From Streptomyces sp. NBC_01788 (GTDB lineage: Bacteria > Actinomycetota > Actinomycetes > Streptomycetales > Streptomycetaceae): a DNA stretch of 64,000 nucleotides. A program made the translations under genes and the position numbers. This document shows, piece after piece, positions 55,023 to 60,815 of this stretch. The notes beneath the pieces are model-generated. The model saw nothing but the letters and a program-made list of their open reading frames with translations. It made no database searches and was not told the origin of the DNA. The first letter of the stretch is position 1; each line of letters begins with the position of its first letter. The stretch covers positions 7,440,001 to 7,504,000 of the forward strand of contig NZ_CP109090.1 in NCBI RefSeq assembly GCF_035917575.1, written 5' to 3'.

Positions 55023-56111
55023 TCACCCCTGGTCGTTGAGGCGGACCGGCATCAGCAGAGAGAATGTGTGCTCGTCGTCAGGGCGGCGGATCACGAGTGG
55101 GGCCGTGGGGGCGCCGAACTCCAGGAGCAGTTCGTCCCTGGCACCGGCGGTGAGGGCGTGCAGCAGGAACTCGCGGTTGACGGCGACGTGGTTCCGGTCG
55201 TCGTCGTCCTCGCGGACGGTCACCGTGCCGTCGTTCGCCACGGCGAGCACGCTGAGGTCGTAGGACACGCCGTCCTGCTCGCGCGTCCTGTCCGCACGGA
55301 CGGGGCCCGTCTCCAGAGCCTTGCGGAAGGTGGCCACGTCGATGACCGCCCGGCGCCCGGCGGGCAGGGCGACGATGCGCCGGTAGTCGGGGAAGTCGTG
55401 GTCGAGGCACTGGCCGACCGCCTGGCGGTCCCCGGCCTCCAACGTCACACGGCCGGCGTCCACGGCGAGGTGGACGGGTTCCCCGCCGTCCAGCAGCGCC
55501 CGCATCGCGTCGGCGAGCGGGAGGGGCACGATGACCTGCGCGCGGCCCGCGCCGTGCCGGGCGGTGCGTGCCCGCGCGACGGCCATCCGGTACCGGTCGG
55601 TGGCCACGACACGGAGGTCTTCACCCTCGATGTCGAACAGGAGCCCGCCGAGCATCGGCAGCTCCGGATCGGTACTGGCCGCGAAACGGACCGCGTCGAG
55701 CGCGGCGGCCAGCTCCAGGGCGGAGACGGACAGCCGGGCGGTGGCGGTGCGGAGCGAAGAGGCCATGGGGTTCTCCCTGTGGTCGAGTACTGCTCGGAGC
55801 GCGGAGAACTCACTGCGGGCATCGGACAGACCGAGCTCGAGACGGTGCAGGTGCGCCTGGAGGAGCCTCCGCACCAGGTCGGTGTCCGCGCTGGACCAGC
55901 CGGCCAGCACCAGGCGGATGTCCGCCAGCGGCATGCCGGCCCGGCGCAGGCGGGCCAGCAATCCGGCCTCGTCGCACTGTTCGGGGTCGTACCAGCGGTA
56001 GCCACTCACCGGGTCCACCCAGGCGGGGACCAGTACACCGGCCCGGTCGTAGAACCGGAGCGCGCTCACGCTCAGTCCGCTGTCCCGGGCCATCTCCCCG
56101 ATGCTGCGCAT
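55023..56111 (-). CDS. MerR-type regulator fused to a DNA sliding-clamp (DnaN-like) domain
   Basis: A 362-residue fusion. Residues 1-70 form a MerR HTH (MRSIGEMARDSGLSVSALRF, YDRAGVL, GYRWYD) and 75-110 its dimerisation helix. From about 125 to the end the sequence follows the bacterial beta clamp: LSVSALELAAALDAVRFAAS, GLLFDIEGEDLRVVATDRYR, a second domain with VTLEAGD and HDFPDYRRIV, and the C-terminal LLMPVRL characteristic of DnaN. About two of the three clamp repeats are present. The clamp part could be a sensor or a scaffold for DNA-bound partners. A promoter with a 19-base spacer and dyad (56131-56161) lies just upstream, so it probably regulates itself. Confidence 0.85.
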   Translation of the reverse strand: MRSIGEMARDSGLSVSALRFYDRAGVLVPAWVDPVSGYRWYDPEQCDEAGLLARLRRAGMPLADIRLVLAGWSSADTDLVRRLLQAHLHRLELGLSDARSEFSALRAVLDHRENPMASSLRTATARLSVSALELAAALDAVRFAASTDPELPMLGGLLFDIEGEDLRVVATDRYRMAVARARTARHGAGRAQVIVPLPLADAMRALLDGGEPVHLAVDAGRVTLEAGDRQAVGQCLDHDFPDYRRIVALPAGRRAVIDVATFRKALETGPVRADRTREQDGVSYDLSVLAVANDGTVTVREDDDDRNHVAVNREFLLHALTAGARDELLLEFGAPTAPLVIRRPDDEHTFSLLMPVRLNDQG

Positions 56112-56130
56112 GTCGTTCTCCACACCCGGA

Positions 56131-56161
56131 ACTCTGGGCCCTCCACAAGGTCGAGGGTCAA
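56131..56161 (-). promoter_or_regulatory. MerR-type promoter with 19-base spacer and dyad
   Basis: On the minus strand TTGACC (-35, 56161-56156), 19 bases, CAGAGT (-10, 56136-56131). The spacer carries CCCTC-N9-GAGGG (56157-56139). Over-long 19-20 base spacers with a central dyad are diagnostic of MerR-regulated promoters. Transcription would start about 13 bases before the merR ATG. Confidence 0.72.
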
Positions 56162-56261
56162 CCCCGGTTCGTTCTCGATCACACAGTGGCGCGGAGCCCG
56201 AGCAGGGGAGTGCGGCAGGTGCGAGGCCGCCGAAGGGCATTCGGCGTCGGGCGAACGGCAC

Positions 56262-56269
56262 AATACTCT
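56262..56269 (+). promoter_or_regulatory. -10-like box before the AlbA/Schlafen-type gene
   Basis: AATACT/TACTCT (56262-56269) immediately precedes GTG 56272. No ribosome site is visible, suggesting a leaderless or very short-leader transcript. No -35 was recognised. Confidence 0.4.
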
Positions 56270-56271
56270 GT

Positions 56272-57468
56272 GTGAACGCACATGACGTAGATCTGGCCGA
56301 CGCCCTCGGGACCCGTGAGACCCCGACCCTCGAGTTCAAGCGGACCGCCAAGCGGGAAGGCAAGCGCGGTGACGCCATCGGCAATGCCGTCTGCGCGATG
56401 GCCAACGATCTCGTCGGCACGGGCGGAGGGGACATCCTCATCGGCGTCGCGGACGACGGGACCCCGGTCGACGACGTGGACGTCAGCGACCGGGCTCTGC
56501 TGGCCCTCACCGACCTCCGGGACGACGGCAGGATCCTGGACCGGCCGTCCTTCACCGTCCGGGCGGCGACCTACCGGGGCAAGCCCGTGGTGCACATCCA
56601 CGTGGAGGCATCCGCCGCCTTGCCCGTGCGCTTCGACGGAGTCGTGTGGGTGCGGCCCGGTCCGACCACCCGTAAGGCCACGCGTGAGGACGAGCGAGTC
56701 CTCACCGAGCGTCGGCGGGCCGGAGACGGTCCCTTCGACAGCAGGCCCGTGCCGTGCGCGACCCTCGACGACCTGGACCTCGAACTCTTCCGCAGCGACT
56801 ACCTGCCGTCCATGGTCGGACCTGAGGTCATCGAGGAGAACGGGCGCCCGGTGCACCAGCAGCTCTCCTCCCTGCACCTCACCACCCCGGACGGTCGGCC
56901 GACCGCTCTCGGACTGCTCGCTGTCGGGCTCGACCCCGGCAGCCTGATCCCCGGGGCGTACGTACAGTTCGTCCGGTACCAGGGCGTGGATCTCGACGCG
57001 CCCGTCACCGACGACCAGGAACTGCGCGAGAACCTTGTGGGCATGGCGGCCAGACTCGAACCGCTGCTGCGCAGCAACCTTCGTACGCGTCTGGTGGAGG
57101 AGGGATTCCGGGAGACTCCGCAGCCCGACTATCCGCTGGAGGCGCTGCGGGAGGTGTCGATGAACGCCTTGATGCACCGCAACTACGAGACCTCGTACGC
57201 CCCCGTGCGCATCGCCTGGTTCGACGACCGGATCGAGGTGACCAATCCCGGAGGACCCTACGGGCAGGTCCGGGACGACAACTTCGACCGGGTGAACGAC
57301 TACCGCAACCCATCCCTCGCCGCGGCGATGAAAGGGCTCGGCTATGTGAACCGGTTCGGGCGGGGGATCGGACGGGTACGGGCATCGCTCGCGCGCAACG
57401 GGAATCCCCCCGCCGAATTCCAGGTCGACGCGTCGTCGTGGGCCGTCATCCTCCGGAGGGCCTCATGA
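56272..57468 (+). CDS. AlbA/Schlafen-domain ATP-binding protein
   Basis: The 398-residue protein has an N-terminal Schlafen AlbA_2 domain (about 12-135: ETPTLEFKRTAKREGKRGDA, AVCAMANDLVGTGGGDILIGV). The C-terminal half is GHKL/HATPase_c_4-like (LREVSMNALMHRNYETSYAP, IEVTNPGGPYG, NRFGRGIGRVRASL). Proteins of this layout (COG2865) are often called transcriptional regulators, but many sit in phage-defence islands, where AlbA_2 resembles nucleic-acid cleavage or binding domains. It heads an operon: its stop overlaps the ATG of the ParA gene (ATGA). It is divergent from the MerR-clamp gene, whose operator lies in the shared 160-base promoter region. Confidence 0.85.
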   Translation: MNAHDVDLADALGTRETPTLEFKRTAKREGKRGDAIGNAVCAMANDLVGTGGGDILIGVADDGTPVDDVDVSDRALLALTDLRDDGRILDRPSFTVRAATYRGKPVVHIHVEASAALPVRFDGVVWVRPGPTTRKATREDERVLTERRRAGDGPFDSRPVPCATLDDLDLELFRSDYLPSMVGPEVIEENGRPVHQQLSSLHLTTPDGRPTALGLLAVGLDPGSLIPGAYVQFVRYQGVDLDAPVTDDQELRENLVGMAARLEPLLRSNLRTRLVEEGFRETPQPDYPLEALREVSMNALMHRNYETSYAPVRIAWFDDRIEVTNPGGPYGQVRDDNFDRVNDYRNPSLAAAMKGLGYVNRFGRGIGRVRASLARNGNPPAEFQVDASSWAVILRRAS

Positions 57469-58496
57469 AGCGGACGTCGATCGCGCTCTTCAACAACAAG
57501 GGTGGGGTGGGAAAGACGACCCTGACCTACCACCTGGCCCACATGTTCCGCAGGCTCGGTCTGACGGTGCTGGCCGTCGATCTCGACCCTCAGGCGAACC
57601 TCACCTCGATGTGCCTGGACGAGACCGAGATCGAGGAACTGTGGGACAACCAGTCCGAGCTGATCGCTCAGGGCGCTGTCGCCTCCGCGCTGCCCGGCAC
57701 CGGCCGGGTGCGCAACGGGCAGACGATCGCCGACGCGGTGCGGCCCATCCTGGAGGGCACGGGAGACGTTGCCCCCATCGAACCGGCCGAACTCCAGCCG
57801 GGGCTCTGGCTATTGACCGGTAGCCTTGATCTGAGCCGCTTCGAGGACAAGCTGTCCAACGAGTGGTTCAAGACCTTTGCCGGTGACATCGCGGCGATCC
57901 GCACCACCACGGCCTTCCACCGCGTGGTGGAGCAGGCGGCCGACGGGATTGACGCCGACATCGTCCTGATCGACGTGGGGCCCAACCTCGGGGCGATCAA
58001 CAGGGCTGCGCTCATCGCGGCCGACAATGTGCTGATGCCGCTCGCCGCCGACCTCTTCTCCCTCAAGGGGCTCAGCAACCTCGGCCCCACCCTGCGCGAT
58101 TGGCGCAGGGACTGGCAGCAACTCGTCCTGCCCCGGGTTCCCGCCGGTTTCTCCGCGCCGCGCGCCGAGATGCGCCCCCTCGGCTATGTGATCATGCAGC
58201 CGGAGATGCGGCTGGACAGACCCGTGAAGGCGTACGAGCGGTGGCTGCAGCGCATCCCCTGGGTCTACTCCGCGGCCGTACTGGGCGAGGGAGCGCCGGA
58301 GCAAGGTGGCGACCGGCACCGCATCGCCACCTTGCGCAACTACCGCAGTCTCACGCCGCTCGCGCACGATGCGAGGAAACCCATGTTCGACCTGAAAGCG
58401 GCCGACGGCGCGCTCGGCAGCACCCAGAAGTACGTGCAGACCTGCTACCGGGAGTTCCGTGAGCTGGCGAAGGAGGTTCTGGCTCGAGCCCGGTAA
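57465..58496 (+). CDS. ParA-family ATPase
   Basis: The 343-residue P-loop ATPase has a deviant Walker A, FNNKGGVGKTTLTYHLAH (residues 9-26), Walker A' VDLDPQANLTS and Walker B VLIDVGPNLGAINRAAL, with an MPLAADLFSLKGLSNLGPTL switch region. ParA proteins move plasmids or chromosomes with ParB partners. Here no parB or parS-like gene follows. Instead it is translationally coupled to an AlbA/HATPase gene and followed by the remains of a PLD-type nuclease gene. That points to an ATP-switch role in a defence or mobile-element module rather than partitioning. A bulky insertion between Walker A' and B (about 45-150) distinguishes it from chromosomal ParA/Soj. Confidence 0.88.
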   Translation: MKRTSIALFNNKGGVGKTTLTYHLAHMFRRLGLTVLAVDLDPQANLTSMCLDETEIEELWDNQSELIAQGAVASALPGTGRVRNGQTIADAVRPILEGTGDVAPIEPAELQPGLWLLTGSLDLSRFEDKLSNEWFKTFAGDIAAIRTTTAFHRVVEQAADGIDADIVLIDVGPNLGAINRAALIAADNVLMPLAADLFSLKGLSNLGPTLRDWRRDWQQLVLPRVPAGFSAPRAEMRPLGYVIMQPEMRLDRPVKAYERWLQRIPWVYSAAVLGEGAPEQGGDRHRIATLRNYRSLTPLAHDARKPMFDLKAADGALGSTQKYVQTCYREFRELAKEVLARAR

Positions 58497-58612
58497 GTGG
58501 GCAGCGCGTGAACGGCGGAAGACGGAGACGCCTGAGGCCGCGCGACCGTGACCACGGCTGCGCGGCCTCACAGAAACGCGCGTCAGCTGTCGTCGGGGGA
58601 CAGCCATCCCAC

Positions 58613-58921
58613 ATGGCGCAGAACGGGTGCGACGCGGAAGTGAACGAAGGCGACCGGCACCGGTTCGAGGCCGCCGTCGAGGCCGCGGTGGCGGCCCTCG
58701 GACTGTACCGAGGCAAGGACCTGGTTGGCCTGCTGGCACAACGACGTTCTAGGGAAAGGGCGTTGACCGAGCTCGCGACCTCGGGAGTCGGTGTCGCCGT
58801 CGCAGAGGTGTACGACGCCATGGAAGCGGAGTCGGTCCCGCCGGCCGAGGCGGCCGCCTTGTGCGGGGATATGTCGCCGCCTTGCTGCGGGCGCGGGACA
58901 CGGTCCAGGTCCGCACCGTGT
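58613..58921 (+). pseudogene. Phospholipase-D-like (DrmC-type) gene, 5' part, frameshifted and interrupted
   Basis: Codons from ATG 58613 read MAQNGCDAEVNEGDRHRFEA and continue in normal codon usage to about 58860 (VYDAMEAESVPPAEAA). Downstream, coding quality moves to another frame: RLVRGYVAALLRARDTVQVR then TVW. That frame carries a stop near 58749 when read further upstream, so a real frameshift lies between about 58840 and 58870. The second frame runs up to the IS insertion after base 58921 and continues, if the IS is removed, at 60700 with SGPSTPAVPVRATAQVL. The assembled protein resembles the N-terminal part of PLD-family nucleases such as DISARM DrmC. It is third in the AlbA-ParA operon. 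Confidence 0.68.
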
Positions 58922-58951
58922 GGACGCTGTTGGTAAATCGGGTGCGGGCGT

Positions 58952-58996
58952 GACGACGGCCTGGATGACCCCGTTGGGGTTGTGCAGGCCGTCGTC
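58952..58996 (+). other. Hairpin upstream of transposase
   Basis: GACGACGGCCTG (58952-58963) and CAGGCCGTCGTC (58985-58996) are perfect inverted repeats enclosing a second hairpin (ACCCC-GTT-GGGGT, 58968-58980). In external transcripts it would fold just before the transposase ribosome site, a known way for IS elements to limit read-through expression. Confidence 0.65.
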
Positions 58997-59015
58997 GTGT
59001 TGAGGGGTGGGTTCG

Positions 59016-60662
59016 GTGTCCCTGCGTGGGGTGGATCTGGCGGAGATTCCGGAGGAGACCGCTCGGCTGGCACGTGCGGTGTTCCCGAAGGGCTGCCCGG
59101 TTATGCGGGTGCGGGATGCGCTCGGGCCGGTGTTCTCGGATGCCGATTTCGAGGAACTGTTTCCGGTCAGGGGGCGGCCGGCGGTGTCTCCGGCCCGGCT
59201 CGCGCTGGTGTCGGTGTTGCAGTTCGCCGAGGGGCTGACCGACAGGCAGGCCGCACACGCGGTCCGCTCCCGTCTGGACTGGAAGTACGCCCTCTCGCTG
59301 GAGTTGGCAGACACCGGATTCGACTTCTCGGTACTCAGCGAGTTCCGTGCCCGGCTGGTCGACGGCGAGGCCGTCCAGATGATGTTCGATGCAGTACTCC
59401 GGGCGGCCGGCGAGGCAGGGCTGGTCAAGGCGGGCAAGCGGCAGCGCACGGATGCCACGCATGTGCTGGCCGCAACAAGAGACCTGAACCGTCTGGAGTT
59501 CGTGGTCGAGACACTGCGGGCGGCACTGAACCAGGTGGCGGCGGAGGCCGGGGACTGGCTGGTGACGGTGTCGCCGCCGGAGTGGTTCGACCGCTACTCG
59601 GCCAGGCCGGAGGACAGCCGCTTCGCGTCCCGGTGGGCGGCCCGCGTCGAACACGCCGACCAGTGCGGGACCGACGGCATGACGCTGCTGGAGGCCGTCT
59701 GGTCGGCCGCGTCACCGCCCACGTTGCAGAGCCTGCCCGCAGTGGAGTTCCTGCGGCAGACCTGGGTGCAGCAGTTCCACCACGTTGAGGGCGCCGTGCG
59801 CTGGCGGGGGACGAAGGACCTCCCGCCGGGCCTGATCCGCTTACGGACCCCCTACGAACCCGAGGCCCGCACTGGTTCGAAACGGGATCTGGGCTGGTCC
59901 GGTTACAAGGTCCACCTCAGCGAGACCTGCGAGCCCGACGCACCGCATCTGATCACCCACATTCGCACCACGCCGGCGCCCGTCAACGACGTCCTCGTCC
60001 TGGAGGACATCCACACCGCCCTGGCCGAACGGGGCCTGCTGCCGGACGAGCACCTGGTGGACGCCGGATACATCGACGCCGAACAGATCCACCACGCCCG
60101 CCGCGATCACGACATCGAACTGGTCGGTCCGGTCAAGCCCACCACCGTGAAGGGACAGGCGACCGGGAACGTCTTCAACAACACCCGCTTCACCATCGAC
60201 TGGGACCAACGCAAGGCCGTCTGCCCCGGAGGCCAAACCAGCGTCCAGTGGCGGGAAGCCCAAAGCCAGTGGGAGGCCCCAGTCACCCGGGTCCGGTTCG
60301 CTGCCCGGCACTGCGACCCCTGCGAACTGCGGACCTCGTGCACCAGCTCCAGGACCGGCCGCAATCTGACCCTGAGACCGAAGACCGAGCACGACATCCT
60401 TCAACAGGCCCGTATCGAGCAGGACACCGACCACTGGCGCCGCCGCTACGGACACCGAGCCGGCGTCGAGGGCACCATCTCACAGAGCGTCCAGGCGTTC
60501 GGCCTGCGCAGATCCCGCTACCGCGGCCTCACCAAGACCCGGTTGCAGCACTACTGCACCGGCGCCGCCATCAACCTCGCCCGCATCGATGCCTGGCTCA
60601 CCGGCAGACCACTCGCCAAGACTCGCGTTTCGCCCTTCGCAGCACTCCGCCCCGCTGGATGA
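59016..60662 (+). CDS. IS1182-family transposase
   Basis: The 548-residue DDE transposase has a DUF772-type N-terminal domain (GRPAVSPARLALVSVLQFAEGLTDRQAAHAVRSRLDWKYAL), a core with SEFRARL, KRQRTDATHVLA (first Asp), DLGWSGYKVHLSET, EHLVDAGYIDAEQI (second Asp), a Cys-rich insertion CDPCELRTSC, and the ending RRRYGHRAGVEGTISQSVQAFGLRRSRYRGL (final Glu). Full length and intact, so the element is probably active. The start GTG 59016 has GAGGGG 8 bases upstream; GTG 59007 would overlap that site. A hairpin terminator contains the stop codon. Confidence 0.93.
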   Translation: MSLRGVDLAEIPEETARLARAVFPKGCPVMRVRDALGPVFSDADFEELFPVRGRPAVSPARLALVSVLQFAEGLTDRQAAHAVRSRLDWKYALSLELADTGFDFSVLSEFRARLVDGEAVQMMFDAVLRAAGEAGLVKAGKRQRTDATHVLAATRDLNRLEFVVETLRAALNQVAAEAGDWLVTVSPPEWFDRYSARPEDSRFASRWAARVEHADQCGTDGMTLLEAVWSAASPPTLQSLPAVEFLRQTWVQQFHHVEGAVRWRGTKDLPPGLIRLRTPYEPEARTGSKRDLGWSGYKVHLSETCEPDAPHLITHIRTTPAPVNDVLVLEDIHTALAERGLLPDEHLVDAGYIDAEQIHHARRDHDIELVGPVKPTTVKGQATGNVFNNTRFTIDWDQRKAVCPGGQTSVQWREAQSQWEAPVTRVRFAARHCDPCELRTSCTSSRTGRNLTLRPKTEHDILQQARIEQDTDHWRRRYGHRAGVEGTISQSVQAFGLRRSRYRGLTKTRLQHYCTGAAINLARIDAWLTGRPLAKTRVSPFAALRPAG

Positions 60663-60677
60663 GATCCAGCGGGGCGG
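60647..60677 (+). terminator. Transposase terminator overlapping its stop codon
   Basis: CCGCCCCGCTGGAT (60647-60660) pairs with 60664-60677 around loop GAG. A perfect 14-base stem, with the TGA spanning stem and loop. Confidence 0.85.
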
Positions 60678-60695
60678 AATTAACCAACAGCGTCC

Positions 60696-60815
60696 GTGTG
60701 GAGCGGGCCCTCGACACCGGCCGTCCCGGTGCGTGCCACAGCCCAGGTGCTCGTCGAGGTCATCGACCAGGCCCGCGAGGAGCTGCTGGCCATGACCTAC
60801 GCCGCCCGCCCGACG
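60696..60815 (+). pseudogene. PLD-like gene, 3' fragment after the IS
   Basis: Continues the interrupted gene: VWSGPSTPAVPVRATAQVLV, then EVIDQAREELLAMTYAARP, in the frame joined to 58918-58921 once the IS is excised. This is the conserved 'V-W-[ST]-G-P...V-P-V-R...L-[IL]' entry to the PLD domain. After about 60815 similarity stops abruptly: no HxKxxxxD catalytic motif occurs before the next gene, so the catalytic part has been deleted. Confidence 0.7.

Follow-up and report, generated by a model that had tools for sequence, protein, structure and literature searches.

We analyzed a 64,000-nucleotide window of Streptomyces sp. NBC_01788 DNA (positions 7,440,001-7,504,000 of one 8.27-Mb contig; "the window" means this whole stretch, and coordinates count from its first base). 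An original prediction made from the letters of this DNA had described a candidate four-gene module: a gene for an AlbA_2 domain with a GHKL ATPase half, a ParA ATPase gene, a broken phospholipase D (PLD)-type nuclease gene resembling DISARM DrmC, and a divergent gene for a MerR-sliding-clamp regulator. In Pfam searches the AlbA_2 domain, the GHKL half, the ParA ATPase and the MerR-clamp gene all proved real. The first two genes, which we call AlbA and ParA, form the pair that is the subject of this report:

56272..57468, + strand: AlbA, with SLFN_AlbA_2 and HATPase_c_4 domains (Pfam, 7.8e-13 and 7.4e-18), 398 amino acids; predicted effector
57465..58496, + strand: ParA-type P-loop ATPase (Pfam AAA_31/ParA, 4.3e-28), 343 amino acids, with a family-specific C-terminal region; predicted switch or antitoxin partner
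57465..57468, + strand: ATGA start-stop overlap of AlbA and ParA, read from the sequence

AlbA more likely starts at the GTG at 56272 than at an ATG inside the divergent MerR-clamp gene.

AlbA and ParA form a conserved accessory gene pair

We scanned GTDB contigs with the window ParA and found 38 related loci, mostly in Streptomyces, with identities up to 100% (loci and genomes are cited by our L and G numbers). AlbA consistently precedes ParA across these loci, while the flanking genes vary from locus to locus. The two genes overlap by 4 bp (junction -4) in 25 of the 26 intact pairs called; the exception, L034, has a called junction of -31, perhaps owing to the choice of start codon. Separate searches of 392 Streptomyces genomes matched ParA in 17 and AlbA in 14, and all 14 AlbA matches lie within 0-15 bp of a ParA match. 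Of the three ParA matches that lack an AlbA match, the one in G133 belongs to another branch (33% identity), the one in G136 is truncated, and G031 has an intact ParA but AlbA was not found there at 40% identity. With every AlbA match beside ParA, yet only 17 and 14 of the 392 genomes matching ParA and AlbA, AlbA-ParA is an accessory cassette of patchy distribution. A scan across the phylum gave a match in 5 of 396 genomes. The order first noticed in the window, AlbA directly before ParA, is thus confirmed in actinobacterial genomes as that of a conserved accessory pair.

Among 39 loci (the window plus the 38), both genes are intact at 27 and neither at 8, and AlbA lies at a contig edge at 1; ParA is intact and AlbA is not at three (L010, L012 and L041), and the reverse case does not occur. 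An AlbA-centered set of 14 loci has AlbA intact in 11, broken in 2 and at a contig edge in 1, with ParA intact in 14 of 14. This polarity of decay fits AlbA as the dangerous partner, in small numbers and with the first set selected through ParA.

Altered Walker A motifs were seen in the ParAs of L032, L040 and L042, where AlbA is absent or broken, as if the two genes had decayed jointly. Around the cassette we noted a cluster of XRE-type regulators (14 loci), DUF397-like small genes (10 loci) and ATP-binding-protein-like genes (8 loci), all named by eye; such genes flank the pair at L013, L019, L020, L022, L023, L025, L026, L028, L031, L035, L037, L040 and other loci.

AlbA is a predicted Schlafen-type nuclease

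In an alignment of 26 sequences, E16xxxxE21xK23 and D61 of the AlbA N-terminal domain are invariant, and a pattern test found ExxxxExK in 27 of 27 intact AlbA copies from the window and the 38 loci. In human SLFN14, both glutamates and the lysine of this motif are each required for RNA cleavage (PMC12215978). Foldseek searches with a low-confidence structure model of AlbA returned 3lmm (DIP2311) as the top match (6.2e-11), as well as human SLFN11 (7.9e-4) and SLFN13 and others (~1e-3 to 1e-2) with template modeling (TM) scores of ~0.2. Because of the motif conservation, the residue requirement in SLFN14 and the Foldseek matches, we predict from sequence and model that AlbA joins a Schlafen-type nuclease to a GHKL-like half. 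Its substrate would be RNA.

ParA carries a family-specific C-terminal region

A ParA profile aligned to 3pg5 (DIP2308) over its full length (1-322; 1.3e-76, 261 bits); Soj proteins scored ~90 bits with the family profile, mainly over the N-terminal half. The structure model of ParA (predicted local distance difference test, pLDDT, 90.7) also had 3pg5 as its top Foldseek match, although TM-scores to Soj are similar (0.55-0.61 for Soj, against 0.57-0.63). A profile of the C-terminal region (ParA residues 215-335) matched every one of the 105 family members, as expected from how it was built, and had no match in four outgroup sequences or in the open reading frames (ORFs) of seven Soj-type loci of the same genome. 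As judged by this profile, the window ParA carries a C-terminal region absent from this genome's Soj-type ParAs. The remark that this ParA lacks a ParB also held: none adjoins it, and the genome's sole ParB_N match lies at 4.028 Mb, beside another, Soj-type ParA and 3.47 Mb from the window ParA.

ParA relatives in phages and plasmids adjoin several unrelated enzymes

We collected 94 ParA relatives, comprising 14 of 25 plasmid or phage records found by tblastn and the best 80 of at least 526 viral-contig relatives found by profile scan. The partner was defined as the gene directly overlapping or following ParA (up to 80 bp) or preceding it. A recognized enzyme adjoins ParA in 55 of the 94, and these partners are of five kinds: SIR2 (23), RelA/SpoT (16), HEPN (10), cyclase-like (4) and, upstream of ParA, Schlafen AlbA (2). 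Types were assigned by BLAST clustering, except for the 3 of 23 SIR2, 2 of 16 RelA/SpoT and 3 of 10 HEPN partners that were checked with Pfam; this gave SIR2_2 in 3 of 3, RelA_SpoT in 2 of 2, and HEPN_RiboL-PSP above the cut-off in 2 of 3, the HEPN partner at L139 falling below the curated value. Four SIR2 partners are closest to the ThsA/LmuA/Dsr models of PADLOC. At one of the RelA/SpoT loci (L073) the ParA start looks frame-shifted. Six of the 39 relatives without a recognized partner end within 300 nt of ParA.

The partners retain invariant residues: N/H in 23 of 23 SIR2 sequences (22 of them distinct), YxSxH and ExQ in 16 of 16 RelA/SpoT sequences (15 distinct), RNxxxH in 10 of 10 HEPN sequences, and two aspartates in 4 of 4 cyclase-like partners. 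We take all of these to be catalytic residues. The "cyclase-like" label is weak because it rests on those two aspartates and on source names (for 3 of 120 listed relatives the source gives guanylate cyclase or class 3 adenylate cyclase); none of the four matched a Pfam family, and a PDB sequence search was empty. Junctions between ParA and effector fall between -32 and +23 bases in 53 of 53 pairs and are -4 in 23.

We placed 109 ParA sequences in an approximate maximum-likelihood tree; from the 34 actinobacterial ParAs called at full length it takes 11, the window's included. One clade holds all SIR2-linked ParAs (23/23, support 1.0) plus two contig-edge cases, another all Schlafen-linked ParAs (12/12, support 0.999) plus two AlbA-less ones, and a third all cyclase-like-linked ParAs (4/4, support 0.999). 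The HEPN-linked ParAs likewise form one clade (10/10, support 0.92) that includes two partnerless sequences, as do 15 of the 16 RelA/SpoT-linked ParAs (support 0.93), with L114 placed elsewhere. The tree is unrooted, and the Soj/MinD outgroups, two of four being poor sequences, fell inside it with weak support.

P22-like Salmonella phage ST160 (L068, 5992-7065) has a ParA-family member beside its c2 repressor, with no recognized effector adjoining and a DUF3024 protein upstream; ParAs without a partner that are related to it form several clades. A divergent Streptomyces ParA (L177, 7463-9352) has a 268-amino acid gene of no assigned family 93 bp upstream, possibly another partner type, and beyond that gene a DNA cytosine methylase-like gene identified by eye. 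The Salmonella ParA-SIR2 DNA was without a match in E. coli genomes.

Part of the AlbA-ParA loci lie in anti-phage defense contexts

At L034 the pair sits within a type I restriction-modification (R-M) gene set, in the order HsdM-HsdS-AlbA-ParA-HsdR on one strand. Other loci join the pair to Pgl genes of bacteriophage exclusion (BREX)-2 type: L035 has PglX upstream, with small genes between, and PglY and PglZ directly downstream; at L041 and L043 the pair lies between PglX and PglW, with AlbA broken in both; and at L079 PglZ overlaps ParA by 4 bp. At L178, a locus from a different family within the phylum, a piece of an HmaA-like helicase lies near the pair; GmrSD lies near it at L009 and L044. 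A type IIG R-M homolog was found near 5 of 38 loci (L009, L013, L021, L027 and L028), against 0.01 expected near 38 loci from a background of 19 copies in 150 genomes under uniform placement. For about one locus in four we consider the tie to defense clear. The suggested defense-island location is supported for part of the set, some pairs lying within type I R-M and BREX-2/Pgl loci; it may or may not extend to the 28 of 38 loci that showed none of the probed genes.

Neighboring genes in the window lie outside the pair

The remaining features of the locus are:

58655..58861, + strand: N-terminal piece of a DrmC-like PLD remnant (PADLOC PDLC02588 positions 3-71); neighbor outside the module
about 58922..60695, + strand: insertion sequence (IS) element dividing the DrmC-like remnant, transposase ORF 59007-60662 (Pfam DDE_Tnp_1_6 and DUF772; inverted ends 16/18 bases)
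60675..60815, + strand: middle piece of the DrmC-like PLD remnant, with one internal stop (PADLOC PDLC02588 positions 84-130; 91-130 in another scan)
55023..56123 (scanned as 55026-56111), - strand: MerR helix-turn-helix (HTH; Pfam MerR_1, 1.3e-12) fused to a DNA polymerase beta-clamp domain (DNA_pol3_beta_2, 3.3e-20); neighbor outside the module

AlbA, ParA and the nuclease gene had been read as a tight three-gene operon. The ATGA overlap supports this for AlbA and ParA, but the first DrmC-matching residue of the third gene lies ~160 bp past the ParA stop, in an IS-split relic. The resemblance to DrmC is genuine, since PDLC02588 (256 positions) matches both pieces, in two separate matches to positions 3-71 and 91-130 that are the only ones in the whole genome; positions 131-256 have no match. 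The gene was also rightly called broken, being split by the IS, carrying a stop in its middle piece and having lost its C-terminal half. Given the ~160-bp gap, the IS insertion and the missing positions 131-256, we regard it as a relic and not as an operon member. The IS at 58922-60695, presumably IS1182-like, encodes a DDE transposase between its inverted ends and may be flanked by a 4-bp target duplication.

We rejected DISARM as an identity for this region: DrmC is present only as two fragments with the C-terminal half missing, and no DrmB-type domain lies within 3 Mb, the genome's three matches to the DrmB-type MZB domain all being at least that far from the window (DrmA and the methylase were not searched for).

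When the 38 loci were searched by tblastn with both DrmC fragments, the one match, of 39 residues at L009, took in no more than the first 8 residues of the stretch that matches DrmC; no other DrmC part turned up. Of these 38 loci, L009 is also the only one with the MerR-clamp gene, which occurs alone elsewhere: 25 of 101 Streptomyces genomes match it at E<=1e-60. Neither gene thus behaves as a module member, and the four-gene set dissolves because its PLD and MerR-clamp neighbors are almost never present. We note the fusion of a MerR HTH to a beta-clamp as an odd clamp-regulator fusion, found near AlbA-ParA only in the window and at L009.

A candidate switch-controlled defense module and its alternatives

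We consider it probable, on sequence grounds, that AlbA-ParA is a mobile two-gene accessory defense module in which a ParA-type nucleotide switch controls a Schlafen killer nuclease. To the pairing, coupling, motif conservation, patchy spread, defense contexts at some loci and partner diversity observed above, this reading would add an RNA target, toxicity, ParA as the restrainer and infection as the trigger. AlbA would combine a metal-dependent nuclease of Schlafen type, most probably an endoribonuclease with tRNA or rRNA as its target, with a GHKL-like ATP-binding half; the translationally coupled ParA would be a dimerizing nucleotide switch that keeps AlbA inactive or licenses it. Infection would alter the ParA switch, AlbA would halt translation, and the infected cell would die or stall. 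The pair may work as an abortive system in its own right or, within R-M and BREX loci, as a back-up effector, like PrrC, which sits within a type I R-M operon. Elsewhere, the same ParA family would serve SIR2, RelA/SpoT, HEPN and cyclase-like partners.

Several points weigh against this reading. The AlbA structure model is poor (pLDDT 61 overall) and confident only over about residues 11-140, and annotators have long treated AlbA_2/HATPase_c_4 proteins as regulators. Eleven R-M, BREX and Hma probes were positive at only 10 of the 38 loci; in the genus set they were positive at 3 of 14 loci, two or more of which also belong to the 38, and they were positive at 0 of 20 displaced controls, a control that is biased because the probes were drawn from the case loci. 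The PADLOC comparison of neighbors with displaced controls (53 families for 83 genes against 6 for 88, with 20 displaced regions taken and the proteins of 11 scanned) proves little, the matches listed being dominated by kinase models. The absence of AlbA without ParA in the 38 loci is biased because these were found through ParA, and the search centered on AlbA, although fair, has a small sample, with 11 intact AlbA copies that each accompany an intact ParA. At L010, L012, L041, L163 and L165 an intact ParA stands without an intact AlbA, so that ParA is not strictly dependent on AlbA. Finally, 33 of the 94 relatives have no recognized partner although the contig continues; among these, L096 has ParA followed by RelA/SpoT in two pieces.

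AlbA could instead be a nucleotide-responsive transcription regulator or DNA-binding protein that tunes neighboring defense genes, such as those of BREX, and does not kill. The usual annotation of AlbA_2-HATPase proteins and the location of the pair inside BREX and R-M operons would suit such a role. We judge it unlikely: the nuclease motif is kept in every intact AlbA, sister ParAs pair with enzymes instead of regulators, and 28 of 38 loci lack the probed R-M, BREX and Hma genes, so that there is often no obvious gene to regulate. If ParA were a true partition ATPase, the pair would maintain a plasmid or prophage, with AlbA as a ParB-like DNA-binding partner. ParA has the fold and Walker motifs for this, PHROG phrog_164 tags 6 of 6 tested family members as 'ParA-like partition protein', and relatives reside on plasmids and phages. 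The window cassette, however, is chromosomal, the only ParB_N match is megabases away beside another ParA, and the partners at other loci are enzymes whose active sites are conserved; partition is accordingly quite unlikely. Partition with a ParB partner was tried and rejected, as no ParB lies beside ParA and the ParB of one Vibrio plasmid has no relative at 147 other loci in a search for close relatives.

A promiscuous ParA-like gene and selfish toxin genes might also share prophage and plasmid hot spots without any joint function. Both gene types are mobile, and the 33 relatives without a recognized neighboring partner would fit independent association, but the narrow junctions in 53 of 53 ParA-effector pairs and the ParA clades that track partner type (SIR2 23/23, HEPN 10/10, cyclase-like 4/4, Schlafen 12/12, RelA/SpoT 15/16) make this explanation improbable. 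Least credible, and close to being dismissed, is a module of AlbA, ParA and a DrmC-like PLD nuclease under a MerR-clamp regulator. All four genes do stand side by side in the window, and L009 retains the MerR-clamp gene; against this stand the single MerR-clamp occurrence and the at most 8 DrmC residues at any of the 38 loci, and a MerR-clamp gene far commoner (25/101 genomes) than AlbA (14/392).

The original idea of an ATP switch beside a nuclease survives in the proposed AlbA-ParA module, and its ParA side turns out to be much broader, with five kinds of partner. That relatives adjoin several unrelated predicted killer enzymes suggests that these ParAs, labeled as partition proteins, serve as switches of antiviral suicide systems. 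We tentatively propose, as a real possibility, that a large family of "ParA partition proteins" in phages, plasmids and chromosomes acts as a general immune control part: an ATP-driven switch with a dedicated C-terminal region, interchangeable killers and killer-adapted ParA lineages. The window pair would be its Schlafen branch, which would also serve as a back-up effector when placed in BREX or R-M operons. If so, an immune switch in wide use would have been catalogued as a DNA partition family, unrelated killer enzymes of several kinds would obey the same control principle, and a cognate partner of the Schlafen proteins in BREX loci would have been overlooked. The pair would also allow direct tests of the signal that a ParA-type switch detects in infected cells and would provide an uncomplicated bacterial model of Schlafen nucleases with just two genes; the DIP2308 and DIP2311 structures are already in the PDB.

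Relationship to known systems

The best PDB matches of ParA and AlbA, C. diphtheriae DIP2308 (3pg5) and DIP2311 (3lmm), are 22-27% identical to them and were solved by structural genomics. Their locus tags are three apart, so the two probably come from one locus; the DIP2311 chain has 583 amino acids against 398 in AlbA. ParA/Soj partition ATPases have the P-loop fold and Walker motifs in common with the window ParA, which differs from Soj in its extra C-terminal region and in having no adjoining ParB. Partners of sister ParAs match ThsA/Dsr models or RelA_SpoT, and thereby recall the ThsA/Dsr SIR2 effectors and the toxSAS RelA/SpoT toxins. In those systems the second gene encodes a TIR cyclase, a phage-sensing domain or a known antitoxin, unlike the ParA found here. 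Inactive MinD/ParA-like domains occur in other conflict systems (PMC7159879). SLFN11, SLFN13 and SLFN14 (PMC12215978) have ExxxxExK in common with AlbA and show a weak N-terminal fold match to it; unlike them, AlbA is short and single-lobed, has a GHKL-like half and a ParA partner, and is a predicted nuclease.

Dyads of HEPN (MAE_18760) and ParA/Soj were predicted to be toxin-antitoxin systems by Anantharaman et al. 2013 (PMC3710099), and in some proteins the MAE_18760 HEPN is fused to Schlafen (PMC3710099). As in our pair, a ParA/Soj-like ATPase gene accompanies a predicted RNase toxin, and the ATPase was proposed as the antitoxin. The accessible part of that article describes HEPN partners only, without SIR2, RelA/SpoT, cyclase-like or AlbA_2-GHKL partners, and its ParA is not necessarily of the window ParA's family. 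A Schlafen RNase with a minimal histidine kinase has been described as an auxiliary BREX effector, a proposed back-up suicidal RNase, in at least 1017 taxa (PMC12839542, 2026). It resembles AlbA in its AlbA_2 plus HATPase-like layout and its location in or beside BREX loci; the BREX proteins also carry a winged HTH, which AlbA may or may not share, and the words ParA, Soj, MinD and SIMIBI are absent from the main text of that article. Our literature search, with subscription papers and preprints outside its scope, found no paper joining ParA with SIR2, RelA/SpoT or Schlafen partners. Two-gene toxin or abortive modules, HEPN-ParA dyads (2013) and Schlafen proteins in BREX (2026) are already known; what appears new is the generality of one ParA family with five partner types, together with the cognate ParA of a Schlafen effector.

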